Shown in pieces: positions 51,115 through 58,310 of a DNA stretch of 64,000 nt. Position numbers and translations under genes: made by a program. The DNA comes from Microlunatus phosphovorus NM-1 (GTDB lineage Bacteria; Actinomycetota; Actinomycetes; Propionibacteriales; Propionibacteriaceae): positions 4,526,001 through 4,590,000 of the forward strand of contig NC_015635.1 of assembly GCF_000270245.1 (NCBI RefSeq), read 5' to 3'. The notes beneath the pieces are model-generated. The model did no database searches. It was not told where the DNA came from and saw only the letters and a list, made by a program, of their open reading frames with translations. Every line of letters starts with the position of its first letter. The stretch's first letter is position 1.

Positions 51115-51521
51115 CGGGACGAGTCGGCCGGGCGATCGCGGTGGGTACGGCGGTTGCCGTGCTCTCCGAGGAAAGTCCGGACTCCACCGAGCAGGGTGGT
51201 GGGTAACACCCACCCGGGGTGACCCGCGGGAAAGTGCCACAGAAAGCAAACCGCCCCGAGCCGTACGCGGCACGGGGTAAGGGTGAAACGGCGGTGTAAG
51301 AGACCACCAGCATCCCGGGTGACCGGGATGGCTAGGCAAACCCCACCCGGAGCAAGATCAAGAAGGATGCCCCCGGGCATCCGCGGGAGCGTTCGAGGGC
51401 TGCTCGTCCGAGGCTCCCGGGTAGATCGCACCAGGCGGTCGGCAACGGCCGTCGCAGATGGATGATCGTCACTCGGGCTCCGGCCCGAGACAGAATCCGG
51501 CTTACAGGCCGGCTCGTCCCG
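51115..51521 (+). ncRNA. rnpB: RNase P RNA, bacterial type A
   Basis: Catalytic RNA that matures tRNA 5-prime ends. The ends pair as P1 (CGGGACGAG at 51115 with CTCGTCCCG at 51521). The conserved cores are present: GAGGAAAGTCCGGACTCC, AGTGCCACAGAAA, GGGTAAGGGTGAAACGG, and the 3-prime ACAGAATCCGGCTTACAGG. A -10-like TACGCT (51104-51109) lies just upstream. Boundaries are accurate to a few bases. Confidence 0.95.
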
Positions 51522-51752
51522 CCGACCACACACACTGGCCGCAAATCCTGCCTGGCTGTCAGCGGCCACGAGAAACTGAACGGAGACGGCCAAGAAGTTG
51601 ATCGTTGGCGGCCATGAGAACTGAACGCTGACGGTCATGGGATCTGCCCGACACGATGTCGTCTGCCTGCCCGGGTTGCCGGGTTTGGGCTCCTTCCTCG
51701 GGTGCGATGAGCGGTGCTGATGCGCCCGATCGCTACCCGAGGAAGGGATGAG

Positions 51753-53372
51753 TTGAAGTCTGCCGAGGAGATCATGAAGATTTTGGATGCCTACGACCTG
51801 ACCAGGTCGTTGCGTGATGCCGCCGAGCTGGCGGGGTGTTCGCCGAACACGGTGAAACGCTATGTGGAGGCCCGCGCCGCGGGTGGTGCGGTCGCCGACG
51901 GTGTGGTTCGGCCGCAGCTGATTGATGAGTTTTTGCCGAAGCTGGAGGAGCTGGTCGAGCGTTCCCGCGGGAAGGTCCGCGCGGATGTGGCCCATGACAA
52001 GCTGGTCGCGATGGGCTATGCCGGGTCGGAACGGACCACCCGACGCGCGGTCGCGGAGGCGAAGCAGGCCTACCGTGATGGCCGGTTACGGGTCCACCGG
52101 CCATGGGTCCCGGAGCCGGGGATGTGGCTGCAGTACGACTATGGGCAGGGCCCGATGGTCGCCGGGGTCGCCACGGTGTTGTTCTGCGCGTGGCTGGCCT
52201 GGTCCCGTTTCCGGGTCGTGCTGGCGTTGCGGGACAAGACGCTGCCGAGCGTGTTCGCCGCGTTGGACCAGACGTTCCGGCTGGTGGGTGGGGTGCCGAC
52301 CTATGTGCTGACCGACAATGAGAAGACCGTCACCACCGACCACATCGCCGGGATCCCGGTCCGTAACGCGCAGCTGGTCGCGTGGGCGGCTCATTACGCG
52401 GTGACCGTGCACACCTGTGTGCCGGCGGATCCGGCGTCGAAGGGTGGCAGCGAGGCCAGTGTGCGGGTCAGCAAGGCTGATCTGGTGCCGACGGAGGCGA
52501 ACCTGCTGCCCGAGTACGCCTCGTTCGCTGAGCTGCGGAAGGCCTGTGGAGTGTTCCAGACCGGAGTCAACGCCCGCCCGCACCGGATCACCCGGCGGCC
52601 ACCGGTGGAGATGTTGGCCGAGGAACGGGCCCGGCTGCATCCGGTCGCCGCTGTCCCTTACACGGTGGCGTTCGGCACGACCCGGATCGTGCCGGCGAAC
52701 ACGCCGATGGTCACTTTCGAGGGCGGCCAGTACTCGGTGCCTTACCGGCTGGCCGGCCCCGATGGGGAGCCTTTCGGCGGGACCAGCCTGCTGGGCAAGA
52801 CGGTGTGGGTCCGCGGCTATGGGGTCGGCGGAGTCGATGAGCAGGTCGTGATCACCTATGTCGACCCGGCCCGGGGGCCGGTCGAGATCGCCCGGCACGA
52901 CCGCACCCGTCCCGGCAGCCCCCGGGTCGACGACAGCCATTTCCCGCCCGCCCCGGCCGGGCCGCTGGACCGGGCCCCGAAAGCGAAGAACCCGGCGGAG
53001 TCAGCGTTCCTCGCCCTCGGCGACGGGGCGGTGCTGTGGCTGCGCGAGGCAGCAGCTGCCGGCACGGGCAAGATGCGGGTCAAGATGGCCCAGGCCGTCG
53101 ATCTGTCCCGCCTGTTCGACGCCCGCGACGTGGACTGGGCACTCGGCCACGCCGCCGTCCACGGCCGGTTCGCCGAGGCCGACCTGGCCTCCATCCTCGA
53201 CCACCACGCCCGCCACCCCCGACCCGACCAGCCGTCGGCGGCGCGTCGTGCCGGCGACCAGCACTCCCTGGCCCAGGGCACCCTCAGCTGGGCACAACTC
53301 GGCCAACCCGTCACCAACAGCCAGGTGATGACCAGCAGCCCGGTGACCAGCAGTCAGGGGGTTGGCCGATGA
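51753..53372 (+). CDS. istA: IS21-family transposase IstA
   Basis: TTG 51753 follows GAGGAAGGGATGAG, the best ribosome site; 539 residues. N-terminal helix-turn-helix (SLRDAAELAGCSPNTVKRYV), then an rve core with WLQYDYGQGP (Asp), VLTDNEK (Asp) and SKGGSEASVRVSK (Glu). Overlaps istB by ATGA. Intact; the element may be mobile. Confidence 0.92.
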   Translation: MKSAEEIMKILDAYDLTRSLRDAAELAGCSPNTVKRYVEARAAGGAVADGVVRPQLIDEFLPKLEELVERSRGKVRADVAHDKLVAMGYAGSERTTRRAVAEAKQAYRDGRLRVHRPWVPEPGMWLQYDYGQGPMVAGVATVLFCAWLAWSRFRVVLALRDKTLPSVFAALDQTFRLVGGVPTYVLTDNEKTVTTDHIAGIPVRNAQLVAWAAHYAVTVHTCVPADPASKGGSEASVRVSKADLVPTEANLLPEYASFAELRKACGVFQTGVNARPHRITRRPPVEMLAEERARLHPVAAVPYTVAFGTTRIVPANTPMVTFEGGQYSVPYRLAGPDGEPFGGTSLLGKTVWVRGYGVGGVDEQVVITYVDPARGPVEIARHDRTRPGSPRVDDSHFPPAPAGPLDRAPKAKNPAESAFLALGDGAVLWLREAAAAGTGKMRVKMAQAVDLSRLFDARDVDWALGHAAVHGRFAEADLASILDHHARHPRPDQPSAARRAGDQHSLAQGTLSWAQLGQPVTNSQVMTSSPVTSSQGVGR

Positions 53373-54178
53373 CCGCCACCACCACTGCCGCGGTCCCGAA
53401 AGCCGGGGCACCGCTACCGCCGCCGCTGCCGGCCGATGTCGAGCAGCTGCTGCGGCGGATGCGGCTGCCCCATATCCGCCGCGCCGCGCCGGAGGTGATC
53501 GCCACCGCCCGAGCACAACGCTGGGAACCGGTCGAGGTGCTGCGGATCCTGCTCGCCGAGGAAGTCGCCGGCCGGGAACGCTCCGCCCTGGCCACCCGCC
53601 GCACCGCGGCCGGGTTCCCCACCGGCAAGACCTTCGGCGGCTGGGACCCCCAGTTGTCGTCGATCCCAGCACCAACCCAGCAAGCGCTACGCACCCTGGA
53701 ATGGATCGGCCGCCGCGAGAACCTCGTCGTCTGCGGACCGTCGGGCACCGGGAAGACGTTCCTGCTCGAAGCACTCGGCCAGCACGCCGTCGAACAAGGA
53801 CTACGAGTCGCCTGGTTCACCCTGGAAGACCTCGGGGTGCTGCTGCGCCGGCACCGCGCCGACGACACCGTCACCAAAGCGATCGCCCGGGTGCTACGGG
53901 CCGACCTGATCGTGGTCGACGACATCGGGCTGCTCCCGGTCGCCGCCGACGCCACCGAGGGCCTCTACCGGCTGGTCGACGCCGGCTACGAGAAACGCTC
54001 CATCGCGATCTCGTCGAACCTGCACCCAGCAGCCTTCGACGAGCTCATGCCCAAGACCCTGGCCACCGCCACCGTCGACCGGCTCCTCCACCACGCCCAC
54101 ATCTGCCAGACCACCGGCGACTCGGTCCGCCTCACCCAAGCACTCGCCGGCCAGGGGGTGAACCCCTTGAGCAGCTGA
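53369..54178 (+). CDS. istB: IS21-family helper ATPase IstB
   Basis: 269 residues, AAA+ ATPase that assists IstA. Walker A GPSGTGKTF and Walker B LIVVDDIGLL are intact, with arginine finger region VDRLLHHAHI. ATG 53369 overlaps the istA stop, ensuring coupled translation. Confidence 0.95.
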   Translation: MTATTTAAVPKAGAPLPPPLPADVEQLLRRMRLPHIRRAAPEVIATARAQRWEPVEVLRILLAEEVAGRERSALATRRTAAGFPTGKTFGGWDPQLSSIPAPTQQALRTLEWIGRRENLVVCGPSGTGKTFLLEALGQHAVEQGLRVAWFTLEDLGVLLRRHRADDTVTKAIARVLRADLIVVDDIGLLPVAADATEGLYRLVDAGYEKRSIAISSNLHPAAFDELMPKTLATATVDRLLHHAHICQTTGDSVRLTQALAGQGVNPLSS

Positions 54179-54388
54179 ACCAAGGCCGGACGGTGGCCAA
54201 CCCCGGGCAGAACCCATGGCCACCACCGTGCACTTCTCGTGACCGCCACCGGTCAGCCATCAAGACCGCCAGTGGTCAAGTTCTGCTGGCCCTTGACACC
54301 TGGCTAGGCATGAAGCATCCCCGCTCGTCAGATCTGCGTTGACAGGGTGTCGAGGTGCGTACGGGACCCGAACGGTCCGGCCACGTTC

Positions 54389-54415
54389 TCAGAGCGTGCC
54401 CAGGCGACGCTCTGA
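54389..54415. other. hairpin between IS21 and the lysin-nuclease gene
   Basis: TCAGAGCGT-GCCCAGGCG-ACGCTCTGA, nine-base perfect stem. No T-run follows. It may be an old terminator or an RNA structure in the leader of the following gene; 54299-54524 otherwise shows no gene. Confidence 0.4.
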
Positions 54416-54524
54416 CCGCCCCGTTCTCGTATCACGCGCGGCTCAATGCGCACCTACAACCAGCCACGCCCGCTGCCCGCGCGGCCTATAGGTGGCTGGT
54501 CAGCCCAATCGACAGGAGACCATC

Positions 54525-54563
54525 ATGGCGACCAACCAGCTCGACGGGAGGCATTCCCGATGA
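54525..54563 (+). CDS. 12-codon leader ORF
   Basis: ATG 54525 is preceded by GGAGACC with strong spacing and the frame reads MATNQLDGRHSR before TGA 54561-54563. Its stop overlaps the ATG of the lysin-nuclease gene (ATGA), which also has its own GGGAGG. Such a short reading frame with a good ribosome site and coupled stop is typical of translational control or of a vestigial gene end. Confidence 0.5.
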   Translation: MATNQLDGRHSR

Positions 54564-56356
54564 GTGTCACATCGAACCTCACTGAGTGGGACGCAGGTGC
54601 CCGTCAATGCGTCATCGAGGCCGACCAGTTGCTCCCCGGATTCTCCTGGGGCACCTACAACGGCCACCACCCCCGCCAGGGCCTCGCCGCCGACGCCATG
54701 GTCCCCTCCTGGTCCACCCCTGCCGGACGACGGCGCGGCCAGGAACTCGCAGATTGGATCTGGGTGAACCGGGCCCGCCTGGGCATCTGGTACGTGATCT
54801 TCGACGGCCGGATCATCAGCACGACCCGACCCGAGCAAGGCTGGATCCGCTACTTCGACGCCGACAGCCAGGACCCTTCGAGGTCCCACAAGAACCACGT
54901 CCACGTCTCGTGGAAGTCCGCTCCCGCGATCTCCGTCGTGTGGACTGATCGACTCGTTTCCGGTGTCACGAACTCCGATAGCGTCCGGCTCGTCCAACGC
55001 GCCCTCGGCATCCCACAGACCGGCGCCTACGACGCGGCCACCCTCGCGGCGGCAACGGCCTTCCAGGCGTCGCTGGGCGACACCAGGGACGGCGAGTTGG
55101 GGCCGCTCCAGACGATCGCGCTACTCAATCGCGCCAAGATCCGGGCGACAATCCGTACCGATTCCTCCGGCGCCGTCGACCAACCGGTGCCGTCCACGCC
55201 ACCCCTGGTCGTCCAGGTGGTTGAGTATCCGATGCCGACCTCCGGTCGCCTCTACCTCGACCGGATCAATCAGGATGTCACCAACTCCGATACCGTCGCC
55301 TACCTCCAGACGTGGCTGGCAATGGCCCTCGGGATCTCTTTGCCTCGCACCGGTGACTACGACGCAGCCACCCTCGCCGCGGCCACGCGATTTCAGCGGG
55401 ACGTGCTCCGCGACAACCCCGAGTTCTGCGACGGGATCTTGGGGCTCAAGCAAGTGATCGCCCTTGCGACGAAGGTCGGCGCGACCAACGGCATCACGAT
55501 CTGGCGCGATTCCTCCGCCGGTGGGAGCCAGCTCTGGCCCAAGCCGAACGTCCAGCCCAGAATCGAACCGACCCAGCCGGAGCCTGTTCGCCCCCGCATC
55601 ACCGTTGCCGGACTGAATGTGCTGCGTCGCACCGACCGGGAGTCCGGCAAGAAGCGGCTTACCTGGCGGCAGCGGCTGCCGGGGCTGATTGACGCGCTCA
55701 AGTCCGCCAGACCGGACCTCGTGCTGCTCCAAGAACTGGACAAGAAGACTGCTGCCGATATCGCCAATGGACTCGGCTCCGGTTGGTTCTATCACCGTGA
55801 GCGCGGCATTGGCGTCATGTGGCGGCAGGATGTGCTCGAGCGGGCCGATCAGCCGATCAGCAAGCTCTACAGCGACAATGACAACCGGTACGTCACCTCC
55901 GTGCCGCTGCGACACAAGGCATCCGGGCTCAGATTCTGGGCCGACGTGACCCATCTCGAGAATGAGAGCGACCCCAACACCGATGGGCCCGCCGCCCGCC
56001 GACTCCAAACCCGGGAGTTCTGCGCAGCCACCAAGAACGGAGCCCGGATCATGGGCGCCGATCTCAACGATGCCACGGCTGCGCGAGCCAACCCGAACGC
56101 GGAGCAGGCCAAGAAACCCCGCCCCATGCTCGCCGCCGCCAACTGGACCCTCCTCAGCCAGGTCCGCACCACGGTGCCCAACGGCAAGCTCAAATCTCAT
56201 TGGGGCGGTCGCAAGACCGACAGCGCGGTCAACGGCGCCTGGATCGACGACCTCGGCGCCAAGGGCGACATCCGAATCATCTCCGGTCGCCTCATCCGGA
56301 CCGACCCCACCCGCTGCAGCGACCACCATCTACTCGCCGCGGAGTGCGAGCTCTGA
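54560..56356 (+). CDS. peptidoglycan-hydrolase-like / DNase I-like (EEP) fusion protein
   Basis: 598 residues; ATG 54560 has GGGAGG eight bases upstream. N-terminal 120 residues resemble the M15/ARB_07466-type lysin domain: H36/H37 with D45 (HHPRQGLAADAM) and HVHV at 113-116 supply metal ligands. Two peptidoglycan-binding-1-like repeats follow (GxYDAATLAAATxFQ at about 150 and 280). The C-terminal 250 residues are an exonuclease/endonuclease/phosphatase (EEP) domain with all catalytic motifs: LNV, LQELD (about 388-392), DVTHLE, GADLND and SDHH (about 585). No signal peptide. Possible phage-type lysin with a nuclease or a delivered toxin. Confidence 0.75.
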   Translation: MSVTSNLTEWDAGARQCVIEADQLLPGFSWGTYNGHHPRQGLAADAMVPSWSTPAGRRRGQELADWIWVNRARLGIWYVIFDGRIISTTRPEQGWIRYFDADSQDPSRSHKNHVHVSWKSAPAISVVWTDRLVSGVTNSDSVRLVQRALGIPQTGAYDAATLAAATAFQASLGDTRDGELGPLQTIALLNRAKIRATIRTDSSGAVDQPVPSTPPLVVQVVEYPMPTSGRLYLDRINQDVTNSDTVAYLQTWLAMALGISLPRTGDYDAATLAAATRFQRDVLRDNPEFCDGILGLKQVIALATKVGATNGITIWRDSSAGGSQLWPKPNVQPRIEPTQPEPVRPRITVAGLNVLRRTDRESGKKRLTWRQRLPGLIDALKSARPDLVLLQELDKKTAADIANGLGSGWFYHRERGIGVMWRQDVLERADQPISKLYSDNDNRYVTSVPLRHKASGLRFWADVTHLENESDPNTDGPAARRLQTREFCAATKNGARIMGADLNDATAARANPNAEQAKKPRPMLAAANWTLLSQVRTTVPNGKLKSHWGGRKTDSAVNGAWIDDLGAKGDIRIISGRLIRTDPTRCSDHHLLAAECEL

Positions 56357-56391: not shown

Positions 56392-56682
56392 TCACGCGCT
56401 GACTCGTTCTCCCGCCATGCTCCGCGCTACCGCCACTTCCCGTACGTCTTCATCATCGCGGTGGCTCTGCGCGGCGACCTCTGCCGACTCCGGCAAGGCC
56501 ACTCGCGGAGTGCAGACCGGATCAGGCACCTGCCCGAGACCGTCGGCGCGGTCCAGCGTCGAATATTCCGGTGTTGGATCCTCGGCCACCCAACTGGTGA
56601 AGAAGCGGCGCAGATAGGCGCGCACACGTCCGCCACGGCTCGCCGGGTCGCCCTCCTGGGCCACGGTCTCAAGACTCGACAT
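56392..56682 (-). CDS. small hypothetical protein
   Basis: 96 residues, ATG 56682 with GGAGGAG seven bases upstream, so genuinely translated in all likelihood. Sequence is charged and without a recognised family. It starts with SSLETVAQEGDPASRGGRVRA; the tail is acidic-basic mixed. Upstream lie the 21-base direct repeats at 56726-56757. Confidence 0.5.
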   Translation of the reverse strand: MSSLETVAQEGDPASRGGRVRAYLRRFFTSWVAEDPTPEYSTLDRADGLGQVPDPVCTPRVALPESAEVAAQSHRDDEDVREVAVARSMAGERVSA

Positions 56683-56876: not shown

Positions 56877-58310
56877 TCAGACGCGGCTGAACTCCGCCTT
56901 GCCGGTTGCCCAGTCTGCCGAGATGAGCCGCAGGCTGACTTCGGCACCCAACGGCAGATCCGGCCCGCTGACACGCGCCTGCACGGCCGGGTCGGCCACC
57001 AGCACGATGCCGCGCTTACCCTTCGACTCCACGTCGACAACGGTCCCGGTGAACTGCTCACCGACTCGGTCGTGCAACAGTGACACCTCGACCAAGTCCA
57101 CGACCGCCCGCTCGTACTTCTTCGCGCGGGACTCGGCTGCTGTCATCAACTCAGGGAGCTCCGGCAGGGCCGCCCGGGTCCAATCGGGCACCGGCTCGCC
57201 CGCCGCCAGTGCCAGGCAGATCTCGCCGACGAATCGATCGATCAGCCGACGCAACGGCGCCGTCGCGTGCGCATAGTCGGTGGCCAGTGCCGCATGCCGA
57301 GTCTGCCCCGGCACGGTGCCGTCGAAGGCCGCGTAGCCAGCCCCACGAAACAGTTCGGTGCAGGCGTTCAGCATGGCCGCGTGCGGAGCGATGACCGGGT
57401 CAAGACTGCGTACGAACTCCGGGTAGGACTGCTGATCGGGCCAACTGATCTGGAGCGCATCGGCGGTGCGCCTGAGTCGCTGCAACGCGGTGGCTTCCGC
57501 CGGTGGCAGGGTACGCAGGATGCCGATCCGACCGGCCAGCATCAACCGCGCGGCCGCGATCCCGGTGAGCAGCGAGATCTGCGCATTGAAGCCCTCGACC
57601 GGCAGGGTTGCTCGATAGCTCAAGGTGTATTGCCCACGATCGTCGACGCCGACCTCCTGGGTCGGAATCTGCAGGCTCACGCCGCCACGGTCTCGTTCGC
57701 GTTCCTCCCGCAGTCGTCCGACCTCGACGAGCAGAGCCAGGGTGCTCCGTGCGGCTCCCCCATCGACCTCACGTTGGGCCTGCTCGTACGTCAGCTGCTC
57801 CCGACTCCGGACGAGGGCGCGCACCACCGTGGCCTCCATCAACTCGCCGTCGTGATCGAGCCGGAGGGTCCACAGCAGGGCCGGGCGGTCCTGATCCGGA
57901 AGCAGACTGGCCGCTCCTTCGCTGAGCACCGGTGGATGGAGCGGCGTACGTAGGTCGGGGGCATAGAAGGTGAGCCCTCGATGCCGCGCCTCGACATCGA
58001 TCGGATCTCCGGCCGCGACGAAAGACGCCACCGCGGCGATCGCATACGAGACCTGGTAGCCCTGCCCGCTGCGCGCGATGTGCAGAGCCTGATCGAGATC
58101 CCTCGATCCCGGCGGGTCGATGGTCACCAACTCGAGATCGGTCCGGTCGAGAGCCGGCCGACGGGCACGCGACGCAGCCCGCTCGGCGGCCGCGGTCACC
58201 GACGGCGGGAGTTGCGCCGGGATCTCGAGCCGCGCTCGCAAGGCGGCGAGCGCTTCCTGCAAGGTCGTCGGAGTGTCAGTCGTCGGCAGCGCTACGATGC
58301 GAGCTGGCAT
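56877..58310 (-). CDS. RNase II/R-family exoribonuclease
   Basis: 477 residues. The RNB catalytic domain is complete: DPPGSRDLDQALHI holds the Asp residues that bind two metal ions, followed by YAIAAVASFVAAGDPID and a C-terminal S1-like part. N-terminal cold-shock modules of RNase II/R are missing, so it is a short form. ATG 58310 is six bases after TAGGTT, hence leaderless. Degrades RNA from the 3-prime end. Confidence 0.9.
   Translation of the reverse strand: MPARIVALPTTDTPTTLQEALAALRARLEIPAQLPPSVTAAAERAASRARRPALDRTDLELVTIDPPGSRDLDQALHIARSGQGYQVSYAIAAVASFVAAGDPIDVEARHRGLTFYAPDLRTPLHPPVLSEGAASLLPDQDRPALLWTLRLDHDGELMEATVVRALVRSREQLTYEQAQREVDGGAARSTLALLVEVGRLREERERDRGGVSLQIPTQEVGVDDRGQYTLSYRATLPVEGFNAQISLLTGIAAARLMLAGRIGILRTLPPAEATALQRLRRTADALQISWPDQQSYPEFVRSLDPVIAPHAAMLNACTELFRGAGYAAFDGTVPGQTRHAALATDYAHATAPLRRLIDRFVGEICLALAAGEPVPDWTRAALPELPELMTAAESRAKKYERAVVDLVEVSLLHDRVGEQFTGTVVDVESKGKRGIVLVADPAVQARVSGPDLPLGAEVSLRLISADWATGKAEFSRV

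Follow-up and report, generated by a model that had tools for sequence, protein, structure and literature searches.

What role a DNase I-fold phosphodiesterase could have at the Gram-positive wall is the question raised by a gene of Microlunatus phosphovorus NM-1, in which such a domain is paired with a wall lysin. The genome is a single contig of 5,683,123 bp (the own genome in the counts below), and the window analysed here is a stretch of 64,000 nucleotides of it; positions are those of the window unless a genome, contig or locus is named. An earlier note, made from the letters alone, had claimed that a lysin domain, two wall-binding repeats and a DNase I-like domain lie in one protein. This was borne out, as they are encoded by one intact ORF of 598 residues at 54560-56356.

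The Gene and Its Reading Frame

The features of the gene are as follows.

54525..54563, + strand: 12-codon leader ORF, read by eye, overlapping the start of the 598-aa gene (ATGA)
54560..56356, + strand: 598-aa lysin-EEP gene (VldE-type lysin, two wall-binding repeats, EEP), ORF read from the sequence
54659..54913, + strand: VldE-type L,D-endopeptidase domain, residues 34-118, with H37, D45, H110, H113 and H115; profile and phmmer matches
54923..55210, + strand: wall-binding repeat 1, residues ~122-217; PG_binding_1 and repeat test
55235..55564, + strand: wall-binding repeat 2, residues ~226-335; PHROG 1224 match and repeat test
55568..56353, + strand: EEP (DNase I-like) domain, residues ~337-598; Pfam, profile and alignment, with eight of eight catalytic positions

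The frame runs from an ATG at 54560 to a stop at 56354-56356 with no internal stop, and GGGAGG at 54546-54551, ending 8 bases 5' of the ATG, is a putative ribosome-binding site. An alternative in-frame ATG upstream at 54446 would add 38 residues, and a TGA at 54413 closes the frame. Through the ATGA overlap, the leader ORF and the 598-aa gene may possibly be translationally coupled. The G+C content by codon position (0.64/0.51/0.83) resembles that of the host, the third position in six neighbouring genes being 0.77-0.85. Searches for promoters and terminators returned 0 and 1 site, counts that did not exceed those of shuffled sequence. There were no NCBIfam matches to the protein at 0.1, and an AlphaFold model built without an alignment was discarded (mean pLDDT 35.0).

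The Lysin Domain and the Wall-Binding Repeats

Residues 40-117 were matched by a profile of 14 relatives from which the protein's own row had been left out (E = 1.7e-26, with Z set to 24736). The N-terminal 127 residues matched the solved chain 9flh in phmmer (E = 0.0043), and the lysin profile that includes the 598-aa protein matched the solved sequences 9flh (five entries, E = 1.1e-14) and 9fln (one entry, E = 8.5e-13). The entries 9flh and 9flj-9fln are taken to be VldE (Spr1875) of pneumococcus, because their description names a LysM protein and there are six of them, like the structures of PMC11667670. In the available part of that paper, the catalytic zinc of VldE is bound by H301, D308 and H375, the base is H370, and the bond cut is L-Ala/D-Glu. 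In the alignment, H37, D45, H115 and H110 pair with H301, D308, H375 and H370. Cleavage of stem peptides is the activity that we infer from sequence for this half, a predicted VldE-type L,D-endopeptidase (LAS, clan MD). The first metal motif is H37-x7-D45, whereas H-x6-D is the form of all the others, 23 of the 24 distinct motifs counted over the loci collected (21 found by pattern, plus two, Moozy and L016, after pattern clipping was undone). The metal residues are thus present, but the spacing means that the geometry of the lysin site may be altered. The earlier statement that the catalytic residues of both ends are kept holds for all eight EEP positions and for the presence of the lysin metal residues; it is the spacing of the lysin motif that departs from the common form.

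Among PHROGs, three endolysin families matched the protein (1224, 1493 and 16241, with E values of 4.4e-8, 6.3e-8 and 6.9e-4), as did one family of unknown function and one tape-measure family. Pfam PG_binding_1 was over its cut-off (E = 3.2e-6). Local alignment of repeat 1 with repeat 2 scored 139, against a mean of 28 (sd 4.6, maximum 45) in 200 shuffles. A tblastn search with the repeats against phages gave no match at 0.01.

The EEP Domain

Pfam PF03372 (Exo_endo_phos) matched with E = 5.1e-5 and 23.6 bits, 0.9 bit short of its cut-off of 24.5. Residues 337-596 were matched far more strongly (E = 2.2e-27, 96.8 bits) by a profile of seven other EEP proteins that left out the 598-aa protein; five of the seven are without recognised wall-hydrolase domains as far as they were read, and two are of the plasmid type. 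Across 11 aligned EEP domains, N353, E392, H465, D501, N503, D588 and H589 never vary, and D563 is found in 10 of 11 as aligned.

EEP enzymes act on lipids, sugars and phosphoinositides as well as on nucleic acids. Against solved structures, the EEP domain of the 598-aa protein alone reached exonuclease III only, at E = 0.031, and a profile of these EEP domains matched nucleases, sphingomyelinases, a mannosyl phosphatase and inositol phosphatases. This breadth of EEP substrates, the matching of nucleases and phosphatases alike by the profile, and the weak reach of the single domain to just one nuclease all count against the reading favoured below. DNA appears the most likely substrate, with a teichoic-type polymer ranked next.

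BLASTP with the EEP domain of a plasmid from another genome (G150) gave no meaningful match to this EEP domain, which was also missed by a ten-domain profile built without it, nine of the ten domains coming from wall-hydrolase proteins. Shared ancestry with the other EEP fusions is not supported, since that profile missed the domain; common descent with the plasmid EEPs is supported by neither search, and separate fusions are assumed.

Distribution of the Architecture

The whole protein matched 153 of 198 genomes of the family, own included. Among the matches listed, all but the own gene lay within query residues 1-143 (best other E value 7.2e-19), and none in the 197 other family genomes was near full length. 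The repeats and EEP as one query matched 12 of 394 class genomes; one of these is the own genome, and in the remaining 11 the match is confined to the repeat region. The EEP domain alone matched 7 of 198 family and 3 of 396 phylum genomes, own included in each; the class and phylum sets are overlapping samples. The exact order of lysin, repeats and EEP was found in one genome only among those searched, in agreement with the earlier remark that this order matches no standard family.

Both halves are of known enzyme kinds, and no description of their joining was found in the literature searched, which covered titles and abstract openings, with subscription papers mostly outside its coverage. A 2025 review of type IV secretion systems (T4SS; PMC12857230) names, in its available part, VirB1-type enzymes with CHAP, SLT, MUR and LytM domains; in the available main text, the whole word "nuclease" is absent and "endonuclease" is present.

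Export Signal, Locus and Phage Context

The earlier note had reported that a signal peptide is absent, and this was confirmed: neither a signal peptide nor an anchor was seen, the best 19-residue hydropathy mean being 0.23 in the first 80 residues counted from the longer start. In seven other EEP wall hydrolases (L132, L135, L059, L056, L140, L143 and L136), the corresponding value is 1.78-3.08. The landmarks around the gene are the following.

51120..51520, + strand: rnpB (bacterial RNase P RNA class A), upstream; Rfam RF00010, 287.5 bits, E = 6.4e-94
51557..54298, + strand: IS21-family element; rve and IstB_IS21 Pfam matches, flanked on each side by CCTGGC as a 6-bp target duplication
56877..58310, - strand: RNB exoribonuclease gene, convergent, downstream; Pfam RNB, E = 1.8e-45

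The IS21 element lies between rnpB and the 598-aa gene, 36 bases after the former and 261 bases 5' of the start of the latter. Other copies in the genome are 100% (three), 87% (one) and 70% (two) identical; the ends of the element are given by two of the identical copies, and the third aligns a few bases beyond. Removal of a signal peptide by this insertion was considered and rejected on the position of the in-frame stop, since 54413 is 3' of the end of the element at 54298.

A Pfam scan of 14 ORFs of the window (four including the 598-aa gene itself, and ten more, five of which had no match) found, at a greater distance from the gene, PMI, M24, TetR, zinc-ribbon and histidine phosphatase proteins, and no T4SS genes among the matched neighbours. 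Neither the membrane anchor of a VirB1-type conjugation wall hydrolase nor, among these matched neighbours, its T4SS genes were thus seen. Between the gene and RNB there is a 96-codon ORF (56392-56682, - strand) without a PHROG match, upstream of which an AGGAG site lies inside a small inverted repeat.

By tblastn at 1e-5, the 598-aa gene was found in none of 14 stretches around RNB in relatives; rnpB was included in five of the 14, and one stretch was just 2.9 kb long. The size of the rnpB-RNB interval differs between relatives. In one of them, G105 (L094:5887-9328), two genes for secreted proteins, one fn3-EEP and the other Peptidase_M15_4, stand separately between rnpB and RNB. They have no match to the 598-aa protein and are not orthologous to it; as a side observation, this separate pair echoes the fused pair. 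The earlier note had held that the case for a fusion would fall if the halves proved to be separate in relatives with no fusion conserved. The exact fusion is indeed not conserved, but the separate genes of G105 are not its counterparts, and the joining of EEP to wall hydrolases recurs in other proteins.

The same note had offered a phage lysis product as one explanation. The lysin half does match the phage endolysin PHROGs given above, and the domain layout is that of an endolysin (predicted muralytic domain and wall-binding part, no signal), but the phage or prophage setting with holin and structural genes was not found. The whole protein had no match at 1e-5 in 50,697 phage records. Its lysin part matched 252 of these at E up to 10, with 4e-4 the best among the matches listed, and its EEP part matched two records at E of about 3. 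Viral contigs and genome contigs gave no match to six short exact peptide patterns, a search that detects only close relatives. Among plasmids, two records matched the whole protein, in the lysin domain only. No structural or lysis PHROG was found among eight neighbours in the window (four without match, the rest of unknown function or "nuclease"), no holin or phage-type gene was recognised beside the gene, and terminase PF03354, the one terminase family searched, is absent from the genome. With rnpB, IS21, RNB and others as neighbours, a prophage locus was rejected. PADLOC gave no anti-phage defence matches for three proteins at 0.01.

Recurrence of the Pairing

With the EEP domain of the G150 plasmid as query, 14 of 197 family genomes matched, own included, with two matches in the own genome. 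The related genes are listed below.

G000:C1:1428282-1430567 (L134:2283-4568), - strand: second lysin-EEP gene, 762 aa; amidase-like domain, M23, wall-binding part and EEP
own genome 5385676-5387589 (L132:9177-11090), + strand: SLT + EEP + NlpC/P60 protein, 638 aa, with a hydrophobic N-terminal stretch and an adjoining DUF1707 gene
L135:10437-12278: similar SLT + EEP + NlpC/P60 protein of genome G106, 614 aa, with an adjoining DUF1707 gene
L140:11482-14598, L142:5473-8616, L143:4854-7517, L144:5890-8526 and L145:4827-6809: plasmid EEP wall hydrolases with T4SS genes near

The second lysin-EEP protein matches endolysin PHROG 17214 at its start, Peptidase_M23 (E = 3e-21) and PHROG 1493 further on, and ends in an EEP domain that Pfam matches weakly (PF14529, E = 0.0024, under the cut-off). 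We take its start to be amidase-like, by eye, with support from PHROG 17214. The N-terminus is not hydrophobic (best 19-residue mean 0.29 in the first 100), and the frame is open and lies between a methyltransferase and a methionyl-tRNA synthetase gene. When 20 genomes of the genus were searched with its EEP, two matched, the own one with the gene itself and G106 with distant matches. A query of 750 of its 762 residues matched 1079 of 50,697 phage records; the matches listed are to the amidase part, and none covers 80%.

On the actinobacterial plasmids pCHL, pA-N39, pNOCA01, pTC1 and pB-N39, wall hydrolases that carry a single EEP domain or a pair of them have T4SS-type genes near. Mobility typing gave pNOCA01 and pTC1 as conjugative and pCHL, pA-N39 and pB-N39 as non-mobilizable. 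Of the ORFs read here on pCHL and pA-N39, the records annotate no more than the C-terminal end, as shorter genes; one tblastn piece spans the first 792 residues in both, with 85.9% identity. The EEP pair of pNOCA01 as query matched 7 of 72,556 plasmid records, five of which were examined. The lysozyme-like stretches of L059, L056, L107, L140 and L142, the hydrolase parts of pB-N39, the label "VirB1-type" and the T4SS-like genes among the neighbours of L059 are presumed from reading by eye.

In a profile scan of ORFs of at least 150 residues at the loci collected, 68 matched EEP and 49 matched VldE (duplicates included), and 11 matched both. With overlaps removed, these are the 598-aa gene and six others, on pCHL, pA-N39 and G150, two in G106, and one in G104 that is cut by a contig end; the EEP profile of the scan was built partly from these same proteins and is not an independent test of them. 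With Pfam alone, the EEP domain was over the cut-off in pCHL, pA-N39, pNOCA01, pTC1, pB-N39, L132, L136 and the G104 protein, and not in L059, L056, L107 and L135. The EEP domain of L132 matched 12 of 296 class genomes, own included. Of 15 other matches to it, frames were read for 12, one of them on the wrong strand; the remaining 11 are EEP proteins in which reading by eye recognised no lysin domain. Since many EEP proteins thus carry no wall hydrolase, the pairing is a recurrent minority rather than a rule.

Proposed Role and Alternative Explanations

The reading that we favour, at a probability of roughly 0.4, is that the 598-aa protein is an endolysin-derived enzyme released by lysis, which would bind walls, cut stem peptides and hydrolyse a phosphodiester polymer, likeliest DNA. 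The protein would have originated from a phage-type endolysin. Its VldE-type half would cut stem peptides, the two repeats would anchor it to peptidoglycan, and the EEP half would hydrolyse its polymer at the same wall site. It would probably remain cytoplasmic up to the lysis of the cell, or until the membrane is opened by some other lysis system, and would then attack the walls and nucleic acids of siblings or neighbours. Release by lysis is suggested by the endolysin-like build together with the lack of an export signal. Both activities, the substrate, the release route and the benefit are what we infer from sequence. The reading is favoured by the domain identities, the residues, the VldE chemistry and the layout of the phage endolysin Moozy gp4, and also by the second lone lysin-EEP gene in the chromosome and by the EEP domains on other secreted or T4SS-type wall hydrolases. 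Opposed to it are the H-x7-D spacing, the lack of a recognised holin or phage gene nearby, the finding of the exact fusion in one genome and the failure of the ten-domain profile to retrieve the EEP domain.

The occurrence of EEP domains on anchored or secreted wall hydrolases, some beside T4SS genes, is also what would be expected if the EEP half were a wall phosphodiesterase, cutting teichoic acid or another phosphate-linked polymer of the wall and clearing the path for the fused hydrolase. A free DNase near a T4SS channel would seem hazardous, and the EEP fold extends beyond nucleic acids. However, a secreted EEP protein of the same bacterial family (L036) matches the ExeM/NucH nuclease model, though with 47.7 of 300 bits, far under the cut-off. 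To our knowledge, no EEP enzyme acts on teichoic acid, and we consider this explanation unlikely. The isolation of the gene, its confinement to one genome, the altered motif and the IS21 element 261 bases from its start would also fit a captured or remnant phage lysis gene without a present role, the lysin half of which may already be impaired. This explanation is distinctly unlikely, as the frame, the ribosome-binding site, the host-like composition and all EEP catalytic residues are intact, and the second gene of similar layout is an open frame too.

The earlier note had further suggested a weapon delivered by an injection system. Two contractile-sheath genes of the genome do exceed the cut-off of their family (PF04984; G000:C1:402695-403177 and 2457123-2457530) and possibly belong to contractile injection systems. 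On the linear contig they lie about 4.18 and 2.12 Mb from the 598-aa gene (on a circular chromosome, the first would be 1.5 Mb away), and no injection-system genes were seen among the neighbours examined with Pfam and PHROGs. Given such distances, no link can be drawn, and an effector of this kind is very improbable. It is hardly credible that a sequencing error fused two adjacent genes: the exact fusion is known from one genome, but this is a single-contig assembly, the frame continues through the repeats and linker with normal coding composition, and the same genome has a second lysin-EEP gene.

Beyond the endolysin-derived reading of this protein, we put forward, tentatively and with considerable doubt, a wider proposal: that Actinobacteria and their mobile elements repeatedly pair peptidoglycan hydrolases with EEP (anchored beside T4SS, as secreted SLT-NlpC/P60 proteins, or as lone endolysin-like proteins), and that EEP takes an active part in opening the wall, where it would cut a phosphodiester polymer of the wall or DNA held there. 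If true, this would be an undescribed wall role for the fold and an undescribed catalytic step in actinobacterial DNA transfer. Cutting of DNA would be relevant to the killing of competitors and to the clearing of DNA, whether at lysis or at the mating junction; cutting of a wall polymer would be a new activity for the fold. The recurring pairing is the point of interest, and the partnership is worth testing.

Comparison with Known Systems

VldE (Spr1875) shares with the first domain of the 598-aa protein the zinc ligands H, D and H and the base H. In VldE, a binding module and a linker precede the catalytic module, which is thus C-terminal, whereas that of the 598-aa protein is N-terminal and has the H-x7-D motif, other repeats and an EEP tail. 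As partners of VldE modules in Actinobacteria, the available part of PMC11667670 gives lysozyme-like, SH3 and peptidase domains and mentions no nuclease. The Streptomyces phage endolysins Moozy gp4 and Bing gp4 (PHROG 16241) resemble the 598-aa protein in placing a VldE-type domain first, then repeats, with no signal seen by eye. Unlike it, they are without EEP and are located in phage genomes, and the repeats of Moozy gp4 are CW_7 instead of PG_binding_1.

The ExeM/NucH-type nucleases share the EEP catalytic set; they are secreted and are not known to carry a peptidoglycan hydrolase. The EEP wall hydrolases of the T4SS plasmids share the joining of EEP to VldE, SLT, M23 or CHAP-like domains. 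They differ by a hydrophobic N-terminal stretch (measured in pCHL and pNOCA01, seen by eye in the others), by T4SS genes near them and, in four of five, by a first EEP domain ahead of the lysin domains. The second lysin-EEP protein of the own genome has other lysin domains, and the two EEP domains are 21% alike as aligned, but it shares the endolysin-like front, the wall-binding middle, the C-terminal EEP, the non-hydrophobic N-terminus and the non-phage neighbours.
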